DNA from: Phycisphaerae bacterium
GTDB lineage: Bacteria; Planctomycetota; Phycisphaerae; SM23-33
DNA length: 34,097 nt
Direction: 5' to 3'
NCBI GenBank assembly: GCA_011050235.1
Contig: DRGC01000092.1
Span: forward strand, 1 to 34,097
The notes below the pieces were generated by a model. The model had not been told where the DNA came from and did no database searches. It was given only the letters and a program-made list of their open reading frames with translations. Positions 39 through 27,305 of this stretch are shown piece by piece (the stretch's first letter is position 1; each line of letters begins with the position of its first letter). Both the position numbers and the translations under genes were made by a program.

Positions 39-1214
39 TCAACTGGTCAGTGGGCCTTGGTCGTTGGTCTGTTCGCTGTCGATCTTGCCGAAGATCATTC
101 GGCCGGCGGAGGTCTGCAGGGCGCTGGTGACGGTGATGTGGACGTCGCGACCGATGTGGTCGCGGCCGCCTTCGGCGACGACCATCGTCCCGTCGTCGAG
201 AAAGCCCACGCCCTGGCCGGGCTCGTCGCCGGCGCGGATGACCTTGATCGTCATGGTCTCGCCGGGCAGGACAACGGGTTTGACGGCGTTGGCGAGGTCG
301 TTGATGTTGATCACGTCCACACCGCGCAGCTCGGCGATCTTGTTGAGGTTGTAGTCGTTGGTGACCACCCGCCCGTTGAGTCGCTTGCCAAGCGCCACCA
401 ACTTGGCGTCGACGGCGATTTCGCCGCCGACATCCTCGCCACTGGCATCCATGATCTGGACGCTGAGCTTGTCATTGCTGCGGAGGCGGCTCAGGATGTC
501 CAGGCCGCGCCGGCCGCGGTTACGTTTGAGCTTGTCGCTCGCGTCGGCGATCGCCTGCAGCTCGTCCAGCACGAACCGCGGGACGATGATGTTCGACTCC
601 AGGATGCGGGTCTCGGCGATGTCGGCGATCCGCCCGTCGATGATGACGGATGTGTCCAGCAGCAGGGGACGGGCGCCCCGCATCTCACGCGAAAACTCAA
701 CATAGGGGATGATGAACCGGAAGCTGTCCCGCGTCTGCAGCACGAACGAGACGCACATGAACACCGCGGCGCTGCCGAGCAGGAGCTTGGCCAACTCGAC
801 GCTCTTGCGGAACCCGCTGGATTGCTGATAGGTCTGCAGGGCGGCTTGGTAGACATTGCGCTGGATCTGGTAGGCCTCGGCCGTCATGCCGGGCTGGCGG
901 AAGGGCTCGGCCCCGGGGTGATCGGTCATGGGCGGAGCGTATAGGTTGACGGTCAGATCGATCAGCAGACCCAGCACAAAGGCGATCACCAGCCCGGCCA
1001 GCAGCCCGAAAAACAATCCGCTGAGCGCCTGGAGGCGTTTGCGGCGCCACCACATGTCGACCAGCACCAAGCCAACCGCCGCGATCGTCGGCAGGAGAAT
1101 ATAGGTGGTGACGAACTCCGTCCCCTCGCTGTAGACATCGGGCTGAAGGGCGAAAGAAAGCGTAATCGCGAGAACCACCAGCAGAAACACCACACGAATG
1201 ACGTGAATGACCAT
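39..1214 (-). CDS. PIN/TRAM domain membrane protein, YacL-like
   Basis: This 391-residue protein has hydrophobic segments near residues 4-23, 37-54, 63-92 and 142-160, then a PIN nuclease domain (about 183-312) and a TRAM domain (about 318-377). The PIN domain opens with [13 protein letters not shown] and keeps the expected acidic residues D187, E218, D269 and D287, so it should bind a metal and cleave RNA or DNA. TRAM is a small nucleic-acid-binding beta domain. The order membrane helices, PIN, TRAM is that of the YacL/PilT N-terminal-like family, a group of membrane-anchored proteins whose substrate is poorly defined. A moderate Shine-Dalgarno (AGGG) precedes the ATG at 1214. The gene is last in a run of minus-strand genes but is separated from the one upstream by about 220 bp, so it is probably transcribed independently. 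The family call is secure; the biological role is not known. Confidence 0.9.
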
Positions 1215-1436: not shown

Positions 1437-3017
1437 TCAATCGGCCGGTGGGTCGGGTGTTGTTTCCGTCAGGGCCGGCAGGATCAGACGTTGCCAGATG
1501 TCAGGCTTGTTTCGGTCGAGCCCTCGGATGGCTCTGTTGGCTTCCAGGAAGTCCCGTTCGTCGCCGATGACCGTGGCTGTGAGTTGTTTGTCGACGGTCA
1601 CGATGCGGCGATACGTTCCTTCCTGGGCCAGGATGACGTAGGCGAGTTCATCGCTCATTGTCAGGTTGTCGCCGGGCTGGCTGACGACGACCAGACAAGG
1701 TCCGCTCTGAGCGCTCCTGAAAACCATCCAATTGATGGGCGGACTTGGACTGCCCTTGTAGGTGCGCCATGCCCCGCCGCCGCTCGAGCCGCGAATCGTC
1801 ACGGGAATCGGGGCCTGAGATGCCGTCAGGCTACGAGACAGCGCCCAGGCCATATCGGTCAACTCCGGCGGGGTCTGCGGTCGCTCCGCGACCTTCGCCA
1901 GGGCATCCGCGGCCGAGTCGGCGAAGAAGAACGTCTCGGCTGTCTTCATCGCGGCCAGACGACGCGTGGGCAGGGGGGCGTGCTCGTCGGTCAGGCGGGC
2001 GCGATGGGTCGCCATGGCGGCGTAATCCCAACAGACCACCAGCAGGATCACGACCGGCAGCATGACGAGCGCCCCGACGGCGTAACGCCTAAACAGCCGC
2101 GCCATGAGCAGGGCGGCCAGGATGACCAGTGGAAAGGCCAGTCCCATCCTGCCGATCAGCACGAAGGCGGGGGGGAGACCCCCGCCGTAGTCAAGGTCCA
2201 GCAGCGTCAGGCCCGACCAGGGGATCAGAGTGATCTCTCGGTCTGACGCACGATCCAGCAGCTCCGTCGCCGCCGCGGGCCGAAGCGGATCCTCCGCATC
2301 AACCAGGTGGATCCAGACCAATAGATAGGGGCCAATCTTCTCGCCGGCCGATGGTACAACCGACAGCAGCGACGACCACGATGTCTCCCGGGCGTAAGTG
2401 CCCATTCTTCGAACGTTGCCTTGGGAAAGCATCCCGCTGCCGGACTGGTACCCTCCGCGATGACTCTCCCATTTCAGGTCGTAGTTCCCCCTCAATACGG
2501 GCGCACCCGAACGTTCGCGGGTGTCGATCTCCACGTGGTTAATGCCAATGCTAAGCGTCCCACGGCAGGCGGGAGCGTTGATCTCCTTCTCGATCGACGG
2601 CGTCTTGGGCCAAGTGATCTCGAACTGCTCGACGTGCGTGATCTTGGGCGTGAGATTCGAGGCGTCGACGGTCATCACGTGAAAGAGCAGCCTGGCGCTT
2701 TGGGGCGTGTGTTCGCCGTTGGCCCATTCGGGGTGGGCGGCCACGATGTCCTCGAACGATTTCGTCGGCAGTTGAATCGTCGGCGTTTGGGCGTCGAAAG
2801 AGTCGTAGGCTGTGCGGATGTCCCACCAACTGGCAACGCTCAAGGTCGCCAGAATCACGACACCAACGCCGGCGGCGACAAAGCGGACGACCCTCCGTGT
2901 CTTCAGCCCGCGCGGAGATGGAGCTCGCACCACGGGCGGGCCCGATCGGCCCCTTGCGACCACAACGGCGGCGATAACCACCACGACCAGAAGAATCACT
3001 ACAGACACAGGCATCAT
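1437..3017 (-). CDS. Four-helix membrane protein of unknown family, downstream tandem paralog
   Basis: This 526-residue protein has helices at about 3-21, 43-64, 284-307 and 313-335. The loop between helices 1 and 2 is basic (RGLKTRRVVR), as is the turn between helices 3 and 4 (RLFRRY). By the positive-inside rule, the 66-283 domain and the C-terminal domain (336-526) should face outward. It is a close paralog of the gene directly upstream (3079-4659), with about nine in ten residues identical except in a block at 150-230 where only about half match. The start ATG at 3017 has AGGAG nine bases upstream, and the paralog's ribosome binding site is nearly identical, so the duplication included the leader. 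It is the last gene of the GntR-ABC operon. I recognise no family. The context suggests a membrane partner of the ABC module, perhaps a sensor or substrate-binding part; that role is inference. Confidence 0.8.
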   Translation of the reverse strand: MMPVSVVILLVVVVIAAVVVARGRSGPPVVRAPSPRGLKTRRVVRFVAAGVGVVILATLSVASWWDIRTAYDSFDAQTPTIQLPTKSFEDIVAAHPEWANGEHTPQSARLLFHVMTVDASNLTPKITHVEQFEITWPKTPSIEKEINAPACRGTLSIGINHVEIDTRERSGAPVLRGNYDLKWESHRGGYQSGSGMLSQGNVRRMGTYARETSWSSLLSVVPSAGEKIGPYLLVWIHLVDAEDPLRPAAATELLDRASDREITLIPWSGLTLLDLDYGGGLPPAFVLIGRMGLAFPLVILAALLMARLFRRYAVGALVMLPVVILLVVCWDYAAMATHRARLTDEHAPLPTRRLAAMKTAETFFFADSAADALAKVAERPQTPPELTDMAWALSRSLTASQAPIPVTIRGSSGGGAWRTYKGSPSPPINWMVFRSAQSGPCLVVVSQPGDNLTMSDELAYVILAQEGTYRRIVTVDKQLTATVIGDERDFLEANRAIRGLDRNKPDIWQRLILPALTETTPDPPAD

Positions 3018-3078
3018 ATCCGTGCTCCTGAACTTCGTATCAACTCAGAAAGCATTTCAGAACCCGTGGCATGGCCAT

Positions 3079-4659
3079 CTAAAAATCGGCCGGTGGGTCG
3101 GGTGTTTTTTCGTTCAGGGCCGGCAGGACCAGGCGTTGCCAGATGTCAGGCTGGTCCCGGTGGTGCCCTCGGATGGTTCTTTCGGCTTCCAGGAAGTCCC
3201 GTTCGTCGCCGATGACCGTGGCTACGAGTCGCTTGTCGACGGTCACGATGCGGCGATACGTTCCTTCCTGGGCCAGGATGACGTAGGCGAGTTCATCGCT
3301 GATTGTCAGCCTATCCCCGGGCTGGCTGACGACGACCAGACAAGGTCCGCTCTGAGCGCTCCTGAAAACCGTCCAATTGATGGGCCGACTTGGACCGCCC
3401 TTGTAGCTGCGGAATGCCCCGCCGCCGCTCAAGCCGCGGATCGTCACCGGGATCGGGGCCTGAGATGCCGCCAGGCAACGAGACAGCGCCCAGGCCATAT
3501 CGGTCAACTCCGGCGGGGTCTGCGGTCGCTCCGCGACCTCCGCCAGCGCGCCCGCGGCCGAGTCGGCGAAGAAGAACGTCTCGGCCGTCTTCATCGCCGC
3601 CAGGCGACGCGTGGGCAGGGGGGCGTGCTCATCCGTCAGGCGGGCGCGATGGGTCGCCATGGCGGCGTAATCCCAACAGACCACCAGCAGCATCACCACC
3701 GGCAGCATGACCATCGCCCCGACGGCGTAACGCCTAAACAGCCGCGCCATGAGCAGGGCGGCCAGGATGACCAGCGGGAACGCCAGTCCCATCCTGCCGA
3801 TCAGCACGAAGGCGGGGGGGAGACCCCCGCCGTAGTCGAGCTCCAGCGGCGTCAGGCCCGACCAGGGAATCAGAGTGATGCTTTCGCTCTGCGCACGATC
3901 CAGCAACTCCGTCGCCGCCGCGGGCCGAAGCGGATCATCCGCATCAACCAGGTGGACCCAGACCAATAGATAGGGGTCTACCCTTTGGCGGGCCGAAGGC
4001 ACAACCGACAGCATCGACGACCACGATGTCGCCGGGTCGAAAATGCCTATCCTTTGGACGCCGCCTTGGGACAGCGGCCCGCCGGTGGAGCTGTATCCTC
4101 CGCCATTACGTTCCCATTCCATGTCGTACCCGCCCCTCAATGCGGGCGCATCCGGGAGATCATCCTGTATGTCAATCCACACGTGGTCAATGCCAATGCG
4201 GAGCGTCACACGGCAGCCAGGAGCGTTGATCTCCTTCTCGATCGACGGCGTCTTGGGCCAAGTGATGTCGAACTGCTCGGCGTGTGTGATTTGGGGCGTG
4301 AGCTTCGAGGGGTCGATGACCATCACGTGAAAGAGGAGCCTGGCGCTTTGGGGCGTGTGGGTGCCGTCGGCCCATTCGGGGTGGGCGGCCACGATATCCT
4401 CAAACGATTTCGTCGGTAGTTGAATGGTCGGCGTTTTGGCGTCGAAGGAATCGTAGGTTGTGCGGATGTCCCACCAGCTCGCGACACTCAAGGCCGCCAG
4501 GATCGCCACACCAACGCCGGCGGCGACGAGGCGGACGACCTTCCGTGTCTTCAGTCCGCGCGGAGATGGAGCTCGCGCCACGGGTGGGCCCGATCGGCTC
4601 TTTGCGACGACAACGGCGGCGATAACCACCACGACCAGAAGAACCGCTGTGTAACCCAT
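3079..4659 (-). CDS. Four-helix membrane protein of unknown family, upstream tandem paralog
   Basis: The protein is 526 residues and shares length, topology and most of its sequence with the copy at 1437-3017. Helices lie at about 2-19, 41-62, 282-305 and 311-333. The predicted outward domain contains conserved phrases shared by both copies, such as IQLPTKSFEDIVAAHPEW and the TSWSS..LSVVPSA segment. Only 61 bp separate it from the downstream copy and 27 bp from the membrane protein upstream, so all are probably co-transcribed. AGGAG lies nine bases before the ATG at 4659. The region of residues 150-230 differs strongly from the other copy and carries a one-residue length change, while both sides are nearly identical. 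No known domain is recognised. The protein has no Walker motifs, so it is not itself an ATPase. Confidence 0.8.
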   Translation of the reverse strand: MGYTAVLLVVVVIAAVVVAKSRSGPPVARAPSPRGLKTRKVVRLVAAGVGVAILAALSVASWWDIRTTYDSFDAKTPTIQLPTKSFEDIVAAHPEWADGTHTPQSARLLFHVMVIDPSKLTPQITHAEQFDITWPKTPSIEKEINAPGCRVTLRIGIDHVWIDIQDDLPDAPALRGGYDMEWERNGGGYSSTGGPLSQGGVQRIGIFDPATSWSSMLSVVPSARQRVDPYLLVWVHLVDADDPLRPAAATELLDRAQSESITLIPWSGLTPLELDYGGGLPPAFVLIGRMGLAFPLVILAALLMARLFRRYAVGAMVMLPVVMLLVVCWDYAAMATHRARLTDEHAPLPTRRLAAMKTAETFFFADSAAGALAEVAERPQTPPELTDMAWALSRCLAASQAPIPVTIRGLSGGGAFRSYKGGPSRPINWTVFRSAQSGPCLVVVSQPGDRLTISDELAYVILAQEGTYRRIVTVDKRLVATVIGDERDFLEAERTIRGHHRDQPDIWQRLVLPALNEKTPDPPADF

Positions 4660-4686
4660 ATCCGCGCTCCTGAACTTCGTACCAAC

Positions 4687-5619
4687 CTAGTCCGACTTCG
4701 GGGTCGTTGATGGCTGCGTTCGGACAACGCTCTTTGGGTCCGACTCTGGCATAGCGTGTCCCGCTGCTTCCGTCGCCATTTCATTCACGTGTGGGCTAAC
4801 GCTTCTGGTGGAGCCCGCGCTCAATCTGACCCATGCCATAATCACGACGAGCAGCAGCACCACGATGATCAGCACCATCCACCAGTGAAGCCAGCCCGTC
4901 ACCTGGCGGGCGACGGCCTCCTTCCGTGCGTAGGCGACATCGGCCAAGGCAACGGTTCCGGCCGTAACGACGGCCAGCAGGATCAGAACAAGCTTTGCGC
5001 TGAGCTGCTCCCAACCCCAAAGCCACTCCTCAGCCCAAAAGCCCAGCAAAACCATCGCCCCCACAGCCAACGGCGAGGCGAACATCAACAGGTCCCGGAC
5101 GTTCCGCGACTTCGACATCGACGTCAGGCCGAACGCCATCCCATAGGTCGCAAGGGGGCAGGCGACGGCCAGGAAGTAGACCTTCCGATGGCTGGCCGGC
5201 CAGGGGCCGAAGGATTTGGTGAAGCCCGACTCGACCAGCACGCCCCAGATGGCCTGCGGCACGTTCCACGCGATCGCCGCCGCGCTGATGGTCGTCAGGG
5301 CCAGCACAAACGCTCCGCCCGCCAGCAGCCGCACGCGAAAGATAGGTCGGCGTACGGGCGGCAGCGAAAGGGCGAACTCCTGGATCTCGGCCTGCACCTC
5401 GGCGCTGCCCAGCCGGGCCCCGAGGACCATCCCAAAGAAGACCCCAAAGCCCAGCACCCATCCTGGATGGTTCCACACGGGCATCAGCCATCCCAGCACC
5501 AGCAGGGCCGTGGCCGCCCACAGCACCAGCGACCCCAGCCGCAGCCACGGCGCCGCCAGGAAAGGGCGGAACTTCTGACGCCACGTTGCGGCGTGTGCAG
5601 TTAGCGCGGGTTGGTTCAT
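4687..5619 (-). CDS. ABC-type permease-like membrane protein
   Basis: This 310-residue protein has about seven hydrophobic segments (near residues 25-47, 53-70, 99-120, 146-168, 177-200, 208-228 and 242-266) and a polar C-terminal tail ending TQPSTTPKSD. It carries no ATPase motif. The ATG overlaps the TGA of the upstream ABC ATPase gene in ATGA, and AAGGAG precedes it, so the two are translationally coupled. In YtrA-type GntR operons the ATPase is usually followed by such a permease, which makes this the likely membrane half of the transporter. Sequence alone does not place it in a named permease family. The substrate is unknown; related systems handle peptides, antimicrobial compounds or envelope-stress signals, but nothing here decides between them. 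Confidence 0.75.
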   Translation of the reverse strand: MNQPALTAHAATWRQKFRPFLAAPWLRLGSLVLWAATALLVLGWLMPVWNHPGWVLGFGVFFGMVLGARLGSAEVQAEIQEFALSLPPVRRPIFRVRLLAGGAFVLALTTISAAAIAWNVPQAIWGVLVESGFTKSFGPWPASHRKVYFLAVACPLATYGMAFGLTSMSKSRNVRDLLMFASPLAVGAMVLLGFWAEEWLWGWEQLSAKLVLILLAVVTAGTVALADVAYARKEAVARQVTGWLHWWMVLIIVVLLLVVIMAWVRLSAGSTRSVSPHVNEMATEAAGHAMPESDPKSVVRTQPSTTPKSD

Positions 5620-6539
5620 ACCTGGTTCTCCTTGAGTTGCGAGCTTTCCGCCGGGCCGAACAAGGCGACGAAGACCTCTTCCAGGCCGAGGGGAAAGACG
5701 TTCAGGCGAAGGTCCGAGCGGCCCTGGAGGCCGTCGAGTTGTGTTTCGCTATCGATGTTGACGATCGCGGTGACGACCGGGCCTTCGGTGGTGGTCCGTA
5801 TCGCGCCGGGGATCGTGAACCCCTCGGGCGCGCTGCCGCCGTCGAAGACGACCTGCACGCGTTTGGTGCGGCTGCGGAGATCGTCCAGCGACGCCTGGGT
5901 GACAATCTTGCCGCGATCCATGATGCCGACAAGCTCGGCGATGCGCTCCAGGTCGCTGATGATGTGCGTGCTGAACAGCACCGTGCACTCGCCGTCGCCG
6001 GTCAGCAGGTCGACGATCTCGTCGATCAACTGTCGCCGGGCGATCGGGTCCATGCCGGCGGCGGGCTCATCCAGCAGGACCACCTCCGGCCGGGCCGCGA
6101 AGGCCAGCAGGACGGCCGCCTTTCGCTGCTCGCCGCCGGACATCAGGCCGGTCGGCCTAGCCTGGTCGAGCTCGAACCGCTTGAGCAGCCGCCCGGCGTA
6201 GGCGGCGTCCCATCGCGGGTAGAGATGCCGCAGGAACTCGCAGATCTCCGCCAGCGACAGCCATCGCGGCAGGCGCAGCTCCTGCGAGACATACGTCATC
6301 CGGGCGCGATGCAGGTGGTCGGCGGTCCACATGTCTTGCCCCAGCAGCTCGGCCCGCCCGCCGGTGGGCCTCAGCAGGCCCATCAGCATGCGGATCAGTG
6401 TGGTCTTGCCGGCCCCGTTTCGGCCGATCAGGCCATAGACGGACCCGCGCGGAATCTGCACGTCCAGCCCGTCGACCGCCCGGACGCCGCCGGGGAAGAC
6501 CTTCGTCAGGTTGTGGGTTTCAATCGCTGGTTCGTTCAC
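5616..6539 (-). CDS. ABC transporter ATP-binding protein
   Basis: This is a 307-residue ABC ATPase with a complete set of motifs. The Walker A GRNGAGKTT is at 39-47, the Q-loop glutamine at about 86, the signature MSGGEQRK at 133-140, Walker B VVLLDEP at 153-159 with catalytic E158, and the H-loop histidine at about 192 in FSTHIISD. Residues after about 225 form a C-terminal extension typical of drug/lantibiotic-type exporters (CcmA/NatA-like). Translation starts at GTG 6539, and the codon overlaps the TGA of the upstream GntR gene as GTGA. The next gene overlaps its stop by four bases. The signature starts MSGG rather than LSGG, a tolerated variant. It should energise transport with the membrane protein at 4687-5619. 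Confidence 0.92.
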   Translation of the reverse strand: MNEPAIETHNLTKVFPGGVRAVDGLDVQIPRGSVYGLIGRNGAGKTTLIRMLMGLLRPTGGRAELLGQDMWTADHLHRARMTYVSQELRLPRWLSLAEICEFLRHLYPRWDAAYAGRLLKRFELDQARPTGLMSGGEQRKAAVLLAFAARPEVVLLDEPAAGMDPIARRQLIDEIVDLLTGDGECTVLFSTHIISDLERIAELVGIMDRGKIVTQASLDDLRSRTKRVQVVFDGGSAPEGFTIPGAIRTTTEGPVVTAIVNIDSETQLDGLQGRSDLRLNVFPLGLEEVFVALFGPAESSQLKENQV

Positions 6540-6919
6540 GGTTCGAATCGCTCCAATTCATCGGCCAGGATCTTCAGGACCGCCTTGGGGTCGGCCCGCA
6601 TCTGCCCGGCCTCGACGGCCAACTGTCTGGCCAGCCGTCGCAGGATCTGTTTCTTCTGCTTCTCGGACATCCGTTGTGTGGTCTGGGCCACGAAAGCTCC
6701 GCTGCCGTGCCTCATTTCGATCGCTCCCTCGTGCTGCAGCTCGGTGTAGGCCTTGACGACGGTCGTCGGGTTGACCGATAGCCGCTTGGCCATCTCCCGA
6801 ATCGACGGCAGCTTGGCCCCGGGCTTCAGCGCACCGGCGGCGATGTAGTACCGGATCTGGTCCATCATCTGCCGGTACACGGGCACGCCGGAATGCGGGT
6901 CGATCTGCAAATGGAGCAT
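6536..6919 (-). CDS. GntR-family repressor, YtrA subfamily
   Basis: This short regulator of 127 residues has a winged helix-turn-helix at about 12-78. It contains the GntR signature AGALKPGAKLPSIREMAKRL followed by SVNPTTVVKAYTELQ and the wing residues RHGSGAFV. The C-terminal part is only about 45 residues, which is the YtrA type and not the large FadR or HutC effector domains. YtrA-type regulators commonly head operons for ABC transporters and repress their own operon, which is the arrangement here. The ATG at 6919 has little Shine-Dalgarno complementarity. The stop overlaps the GTG start of the ATPase. A consensus-like promoter overlapped by a 24-bp inverted repeat lies 23-55 bp upstream, which fits autoregulation. 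Confidence 0.9.
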   Translation of the reverse strand: MLHLQIDPHSGVPVYRQMMDQIRYYIAAGALKPGAKLPSIREMAKRLSVNPTTVVKAYTELQHEGAIEMRHGSGAFVAQTTQRMSEKQKKQILRRLARQLAVEAGQMRADPKAVLKILADELERFEP

Positions 6920-26201: not shown

Positions 26202-27305
26202 CTACAGTTGCACCTCGCCGATGCGTTCGGCGATTTCGACGATCTCTTCGATGCGCTCGCAGATCGGCAGGTGCTGGGTGCACTTGGCTTCACATTCGCC
26301 GCACTGGGTGCATTCCTTGCCGGTCTCGGCCGGTAAGGTCCAGTGGTACTGCATCCGGCCGGCCACGGCCCGGTCGTCTCCGCCGAGGACTTTGACGTTG
26401 AAGGTGTCCATGAACTTGGGAATCTCCACCCCCGCGGGGCACGGGAGGCAATACCCACAGCCCGTGCAGATGCCGTCGAACTGGTCGAGAATATTCTCGC
26501 GCAACTTCGCCAGGTGCGCGGCGCTGTGGGCCTTGAAGTTCTCGGCGGCCTCACACGCCTGGTCGACGTGATCCTTGGTCGTGAACCCCACCAGCGCGGA
26601 GGTGATGTTGGGGTTGGAGAGGTTAAACCGCAGGGCGGCCGCGACTACGTTGGGATCATCGACATCACGGATGAAGTCGAACCGCTCGGCGTTTTGCGGG
26701 ATCAGCCCGCCGCCAAGGGGGTTCATGGTGAGCACGCCCATCTGCTTCTCGCCGGCGGCCGTGACCGCCGCATCACGATACGGGAAGTTGATCGCACAGT
26801 ACCCCAGCAGCACGCCGTCGAGGTCGACTTCGTTAATGACGCCCTTGAGGTCATCGCCGGGCAGATGGCTGGAGACGGCTACATGGCGCACCAGGCCCTC
26901 GTCCTTGGCCTTGAAGGCCGCCGCCACCGCGCCGCCGTCGACGCGCTGGCGCCAGACCTCCAACGACGTGACCCACCAGATATAGAACAGGTCGAGCTGC
27001 TCGATTCCCAGCCGCTCGAGGGACTGCTCGATGCCGGCTCGCAGCTCGTCGCCGTCGGGGGACGAGCTCTTGGTGGCGATGTAAACCCGGTCGCGGTCCA
27101 TGTGCCCGATGGCGGCGCCGTAGATCACCTCACTCTGCTGGCGGCAATAGCCGGGGGCGGTGTCGAAGTGGTTGATGCCCTTGTTGTAGGCGTGCAGGAC
27201 GATTTCGGCGTTGGCGTCGGTGTCTTCCGGATTATCGAATCTCATCCCGCCGAAGCTGACGAGGCTGAAATCCATGTCGCTGCGGCCGTAGCGTCGCGTC
27301 TGCAT
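26202..27305 (-). CDS. Aldo/keto reductase with C-terminal 2x[4Fe-4S] ferredoxin domain
   Basis: The 367-residue protein joins an aldo/keto reductase barrel (1-260) to a dicluster ferredoxin tail. The cysteines are C280, C283, C286 and C289 (CTGCGYCLPCP), then C332, C335, C338 and C342 (CTQCGECEAKC). Of the AKR catalytic tetrad, D48, Y53 and K79 are present, but the position of the histidine appears as W110 (LFYIWW), whereas the paralog upstream keeps a histidine. The enzyme may thus act differently, possibly passing electrons between ferredoxin and a carbonyl substrate. It starts two bases after the stop of the paralog at 27308-28450, so they are co-transcribed. The substrate is unknown. Confidence 0.85.
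   Translation of the reverse strand: MQTRRYGRSDMDFSLVSFGGMRFDNPEDTDANAEIVLHAYNKGINHFDTAPGYCRQQSEVIYGAAIGHMDRDRVYIATKSSSPDGDELRAGIEQSLERLGIEQLDLFYIWWVTSLEVWRQRVDGGAVAAAFKAKDEGLVRHVAVSSHLPGDDLKGVINEVDLDGVLLGYCAINFPYRDAAVTAAGEKQMGVLTMNPLGGGLIPQNAERFDFIRDVDDPNVVAAALRFNLSNPNITSALVGFTTKDHVDQACEAAENFKAHSAAHLAKLRENILDQFDGICTGCGYCLPCPAGVEIPKFMDTFNVKVLGGDDRAVAGRMQYHWTLPAETGKECTQCGECEAKCTQHLPICERIEEIVEIAERIGEVQL

Follow-up and report, generated by a model that had tools for sequence, protein, structure and literature searches.

Two bacterial ABC transporter systems have been described that come close to the locus considered here. In Bacillus subtilis, ytrGABCDEF is a GntR-regulated ABC operon reported to affect cell-wall homeostasis (PMC8060467; PMC12772383), and its product YtrF is a further membrane-attached protein that is called a substrate-binding protein (PMC8060467) and is reported to carry an FtsX-like C-terminus. 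For BceAB, an outer domain is described whose conservation falls below that of the whole permease and which sets the substrate spectrum (PMC12484072).

The DNA analyzed here, referred to as the window, is a stretch of 34,097 nucleotides from a Phycisphaerae bacterium (GCA_011050235.1, contig DRGC01000092.1). Within its first 7 kb the minus strand carries a single run of genes for a GntR regulator, an ATPase, a permease and two paralogous proteins, A and B, with the following features:

6536-6919, minus strand: short GntR regulator, 127 aa (Pfam GntR, 60.4 bits, at residues 15-77)
5616-6539, minus strand: ABC ATPase (Pfam ABC_tran, 91.9 bits)
4687-5619, minus strand: permease, 310 aa, about seven predicted TM segments (open reading frame, hydropathy)
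4657-4686, minus strand: leader with AGGAG ahead of A, the upstream border of the duplicated unit (repeat)
3079-4659, minus strand: paralog A, 526 aa (open reading frame)
3967-4191, minus strand: divergent block in A, residues 157-231, alignment columns 159-233 (codon tests)
3015-3044, minus strand: copy of the leader with AGGAG ahead of B, 93% identical to the A leader
1437-3017, minus strand: paralog B, 526 aa, tandem copy downstream of A (open reading frame)
2322-2543, minus strand: divergent block in B, residues 159-232, one residue shorter (alignment, codon arithmetic)

The reading frames of the GntR, ATPase and permease genes overlap or adjoin. The permease matches no Pfam family of its own and corresponds, according to BLAST of the halves, to the N-terminal half of a fused protein in two relatives. 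Directly downstream of B, a PIN-TRAM protein with a hydrophobic N-terminal part is encoded (39-1214, minus strand; Pfam PIN 36.5 bits, TRAM 22.1 bits).

Like the ytr operon as it is described, the window combines a GntR regulator with a neighboring ABC ATPase and membrane subunits, among them an additional membrane-attached protein. Two traits of the YtrA type are present, i.e., a short GntR protein (127 aa) without a large effector domain, and an ATPase and a permease that adjoin in one gene run, the permease being recognized by its TM count and by the fusion. The NCBIfam matches of the GntR protein include PmtR, below the cut-off of that model, and we take PmtR and YtrA to represent one GntR subfamily. 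The window differs from ytr in having a single ATPase and a single permease and, unlike what is reported for YtrF, no FtsX-like domain was found in A or B: FtsX and MacB families are absent among the Pfam matches up to E=1 for A, B and five homologs. The likeness to BceAB consists in an outer domain of lower conservation. In BceAB, as described, this domain is part of the permease and the system is associated with a two-component system, whereas the window encodes a separate protein and a GntR regulator; neither the permease nor A or B has a Pfam FtsX match, and the regulator located by the ATPase is of the GntR type.

Proteins A and B score above the cut-off for no Pfam or NCBIfam family. The scores for DctQ (PF04290) are 14.8 and 11.5 bits, compared to a gathering score of 28.3, and those for DUF4131 (PF13567) 11.3 and 14.8 bits, compared to 31.6. 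Sequence searches of the PDB with the A/B family and with the permease returned matches at chance level only, and among the titles and opening lines of abstracts listed for duplication and conversion, none concerns the A/B family.

With a homolog threshold of E<=0.001 and the window's own genome included in the counts, the A/B family is rare: it occurs in 3 of 60 relatives, 3 of 397 genomes of the class and 4 of 392 genomes of the phylum. Besides the window genome, homologs are present in G029, G033, G412, G457 and G613, as a single copy in all five cases; two of the relatives are Phycisphaerae MAGs. Weak matches in the phylum (G490, E 0.0028; G473, E 0.0088; maximum E of 0.01) were not counted as homologs. 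Searches of genome contigs for closer orthologs found none with A alone and only the two known relatives with a four-row alignment, no A/B homologs were found in viral contigs, and the 60 relatives searched include no genome of the same genus besides the window's own. On the best reading of these sequence comparisons, the A/B duplication would be lineage-specific.

The fourth gene follows the permease gene in six genomes. In G029 and G033, permease and fourth-gene protein are joined in a single reading frame of 894 and 895 aa, respectively (L003:424-3108 and L004:418-3105, plus strand), while they are separate in the window and in three other genomes. In the latter, G613, G412 and G457, the fourth gene stands behind the permease gene and its product ends at 365-399 aa; the C-terminal ~130 residues of A (~3079-3470) and B (~1437-1830) are missing in these homologs and thus turned up only in the window's taxonomic family. 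In G033, G412, G457 and G613, a GntR protein with 48-61% identity is encoded close by and shares the contig with the operon, so that this arrangement is present in five of the six genomes, the window's included; in G029, the operon contig is cut and the GntR gene resides on another contig. In G033, two adjacent GntR homologs directly precede the fused operon (G033:C4:26081-26299 and 26366-26737; L022, L033, L038) and two adjacent ones are also present on the separate contig of G029 (G029:C123; L035, L039), the first homolog of each pair being short and matched over 70-73 residues. Judging from these sequences, G029 and G033 seem to have duplicated the regulator, in contrast to the window, where the duplication concerns the fourth gene.

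In the codon alignment, A and B share 82% amino-acid identity overall. By segment, identity amounts to 0.92 for residues 62-110, 0.80 for 111-150, 0.56 for 151-230, 0.85 for 231-282, 0.96 for TM3-TM4 and 0.84-0.94 for the C-terminal part; outside residues 151-230 it lies at 0.80-0.96 in segments of at least 40 residues. An earlier note, made from the letters alone, had stated that only about half of the positions match at residues 150-230, with a one-residue length change, between end parts that are nearly identical. Its coordinates are right (3970-4212 in A, 2328-2570 in B), 44 of 79 positions (56%) match over A residues 151-230, and the length change is a gap in B at alignment column 170. 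To call the end parts nearly identical is slightly generous, given the first ~8 residues, which are poorly alike, and the last ~40, which are only 75% identical.

Hydropathy and structure models of A predict TM1 at residues 1-19, TM2 at 41-59, a beta-rich outer domain at 62-283, TM3 at ~285-307, TM4 at ~312-330 and a C-terminal part at 332-526. The loop at residues 21-40 contains six K/R and no D/E, and RR is present at 308-311 between TM3 and TM4, which according to the positive-inside rule places 62-283 as well as 332-526 outside. The location of the block outside the membrane, proposed earlier on the basis of the same rule, therefore agrees with hydropathy and charge as a prediction.

Since the full-length model of A was poor (pLDDT 44.8), it was kept out of the fold search, and the outer domain was modeled alone with seven rows. 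The resulting model (pLDDT 62, pTM 0.66) is beta-rich, with a low-confidence loop at domain residues 136-166. Differences between A and B affect 14 of 32 positions in this loop (domain residues 137-168), 6 of 8 in the loop at domain residues 104-111 (A residues 165-172) and 5 of 16, 5 of 12 and 4 of 9 in the strands around both loops, and far fewer changes are present in the domain's first half. In terms of this model, residues ~157-231 would correspond to the last strands and a long, poorly modeled loop of the outer domain. The best fold match is CcsBA (7s9y; Foldseek E 3.1e-3, prob 0.96), to which the likeness consists in a beta-rich region and is weak (VIA Z 6.2, rmsd 3.4, 104 aligned residues, 7% identity), a Z of 6.2 being in the range common for models without clear match; among the matches listed, only CcsBA and the type 3 secretion component 7ah9 (6.0) exceed a Z of 5. 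Cytochrome-maturation (ResB/CcsB) families are absent among the Pfam matches up to E=1 for A and B.

The clustering of A/B differences is not due to chance. The best window of 75 codons contains 34 differences, a number reached in none of 10,000 permutations and in none of 300 codon simulations with a homogeneous rate in which the block was chosen freely (maximum 28). Even divergence across the gene, as expected for pure drift of a duplicate, is rejected on the same counts (0 of 300 simulations, 0 of 10,000 permutations).

The main cause of the contrast between the block and its surroundings is a local difference in amino-acid constraint. It was assessed by pairwise codon maximum likelihood (F3x4, own script), with alignment columns before 9 dropped owing to the poorly alike starts, and with kappa, which came to 3.3-3.4 when fitted, fixed at 3.4 in later fits. 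Divided into two parts, the alignment yielded w 1.07 and t 1.04 for the block (74 codons) and w 0.39 and t 0.51 for the rest (444 codons), separate w being supported with p=0.016 and separate t with p=0.06 in a two-part LRT. Across fits, w was about 1.02-1.13 (CI 0.59-2.24) and t about 1.03-1.06 for the block, compared to w 0.27 (CI 0.17-0.52) and t 0.76-0.77 for the N flank and w 0.47 (CI 0.30-0.82) and t 0.38-0.40 for the C flank. Residues ~157-231 thus evolve at dN/dS near 1, whereas the flanks of A and B are under purifying selection. A higher dN/dS in the block than in the flanks, as the earlier note had anticipated, is borne out (~1.1 vs. 0.4, LRT p=0.014-0.016), with a p of ~0.06 when the post-hoc choice of the block is allowed for. 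Compared to the N flank, the block stands apart in w (p=0.006) but not in t (p=0.40), so that toward the N-terminus the contrast reflects amino-acid constraint. Compared to the C flank, it is t that separates the block (p=0.019), with less clear separation by w (p=0.084), so that toward the C-terminus part of the contrast lies in fewer changes of any kind. When the post-hoc choice of the block was repeated inside simulations (300 runs for each model), the observed w contrast was reached in 5.7% of runs with the homogeneous model and in 2.0% with the conversion-only model, and the observed t contrast in 5.3% with the selection-only model. These outcomes favor a difference in constraint and leave room for a contribution of conversion.

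Variability of the same region in relatives points in this direction. Between G029 and G033, identity in the block is 0.35, compared to 0.43-0.55 in most segments outside TM1 (0.30) and residues 401-450, which are least conserved in this pair (0.21) and have an A/B identity of 0.86. Sites that differ between A and B also tend to differ between G029 and G033 (odds ratio 1.75, p=0.02). Low constraint is therefore a property of that region. It does not suffice as an explanation, since the ratio of block to rest, with branch lengths free for each part, is ~5.2 in A+B and 1.35 in G029+G033, an approximately fourfold excess implying that something specific to the duplication acted (unlinked vs. proportional branch lengths, 2dlnL=26.3, 4 df, p=2.7e-5, with saturated internal branches and distant outgroups; columns before A residue 41 and those with more than one gap dropped). 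Candidates for this factor are a further relaxation, positive selection on part of the sites, and flank conversion. With the duplication, therefore, either the block was freed further, or the flanks were spared change, or both. Of the sites with a derived state in one copy, 5 belong to A and 11 to B within the block (p=0.21), compared to 15 and 22 overall (p=0.32), and we consequently claim no faster copy. A longer B branch, suggested by maximum likelihood branch lengths for the block and the N flank, was rejected because the outgroups are too far away (~2 substitutions per site).

Taken together, we consider it fairly probable that A and B, the two products of a tandem duplication of a transporter partner, diverged mainly under uneven constraint, with a small and uncertain share of partial conversion in the C-terminal half.

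An explanation that we regard as doubtful is that the flanks of A and B are repeatedly homogenized by conversion, from which the block is exempt through divergence-blocked exchange or through selection against converted copies. Silent differences are found at 19 of 124 sites in the N flank, 9 of 39 in the block and 21 of 249 in the C flank, i.e., the block exceeds the C flank (p=0.010) as well as the rest (p=0.035), and the longest silent-identical stretches are located in the C half. N flank and block combined differ from the C flank in silent differences (28 of 163 vs. 21 of 249, p=0.008) and in t (p=0.008), both for a split picked post hoc. On the other hand, silent divergence of the N flank is the same as that of the block (Fisher p=0.33, LRT p=0.40), which makes conversion unnecessary on the N side. 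Over the whole alignment, the longest silent-identical run is unremarkable in a GENECONV-like test (p=0.52) and a Kuiper test of silent sites is not significant (p=0.066). As the w contrast appeared in only 2% of the 300 conversion-only simulations, conversion is unlikely as the sole cause. The earlier proposal that conversion homogenized the remainder of the genes consequently finds no backing for the N flank, whereas it may apply to the C half; even synonymous divergence, which would speak against that proposal, likewise applies to N flank and block and not to the closer C half.

We consider it unlikely that diversifying selection acted on a ligand- or inhibitor-contacting block and created two specificities, possibly in one heteromeric complex, and just as unlikely that two diverged subunit copies dock to the same permease, with a selection-diversified block providing two interchangeable or paired recognition faces. 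The fourfold excess over relatives (5.2 vs. 1.35, p=2.7e-5) and the loop-rich location of the block would be consistent with such selection, individual sites above 1 could be masked by an average w near 1 across the 74 codons, and in BceAB the outer domain is reported to set the substrate spectrum (PMC12484072). Yet w of the block, for which the earlier note had suggested diversifying selection, is not above 1 (dlnL vs. w=1 of 0.02; CI 0.59-2.24), and among windows of 30, 40, 50 and 74 codons none has w>1 with an LRT >3.5, the highest values being located at 410-449, outside the block, where there is almost no silent change. Nor are radical changes enriched (24 of 33 in the block vs. 14 of 21 and 22 of 33 in the flanks). 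A w above 1 as demonstrated cause is therefore rejected, as no codon window supports it, although positive selection may still have acted in the block.

Finally, a recombination event that brought a divergent allele from another lineage into the block of A or B, or a strain-mixed contig as an assembly artifact, is very improbable, because the lower GC3 of the block (0.68-0.70 vs. 0.77-0.81) is found in both copies alike and is thus a trait of the region and not of an import, and because the silent divergence of the block, although nominally the highest (t 1.03), is no different from that of the N flank.

Comparison of the operons shows that the fourth gene of an operon encoding a GntR regulator, an ATPase, a permease and an outer-domain protein with four TM segments was duplicated in tandem, giving rise to A and B. 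Under the favored explanation of duplication followed mainly by uneven constraint, both proteins would probably be anchored beside the permease, and the fusion of permease and fourth protein into one chain in two relatives implies a 1:1 pairing. Through their membrane helices and C-terminal part, both proteins probably still touch the common permease. The contrast would mainly result from loss of constraint in the block after duplication, with partial gene conversion of the C-terminal half contributing a smaller, uncertain share. ABC permeases generally work as dimers; if this also applies here, A-A, B-B or A-B forms could be built. From the operon context, A and B are most likely accessory or sensor subunits of an envelope transporter, the outer faces of which may now contact different things. 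The block possibly confers altered recognition, which is plausible solely by analogy with the spectrum-setting outer domain reported for BceAB.

As it stands, the A/B pattern is the expected product of duplication and uneven constraint, and it constitutes a clean natural case of a duplicated transporter subunit in which constraint was lost in one exposed block and retained elsewhere. The protein family concerned is covered by no Pfam or NCBIfam model and is linked to a GntR-regulated ABC operon. Should specificity reside in the block, the A/B pair would allow a direct test by block swaps.
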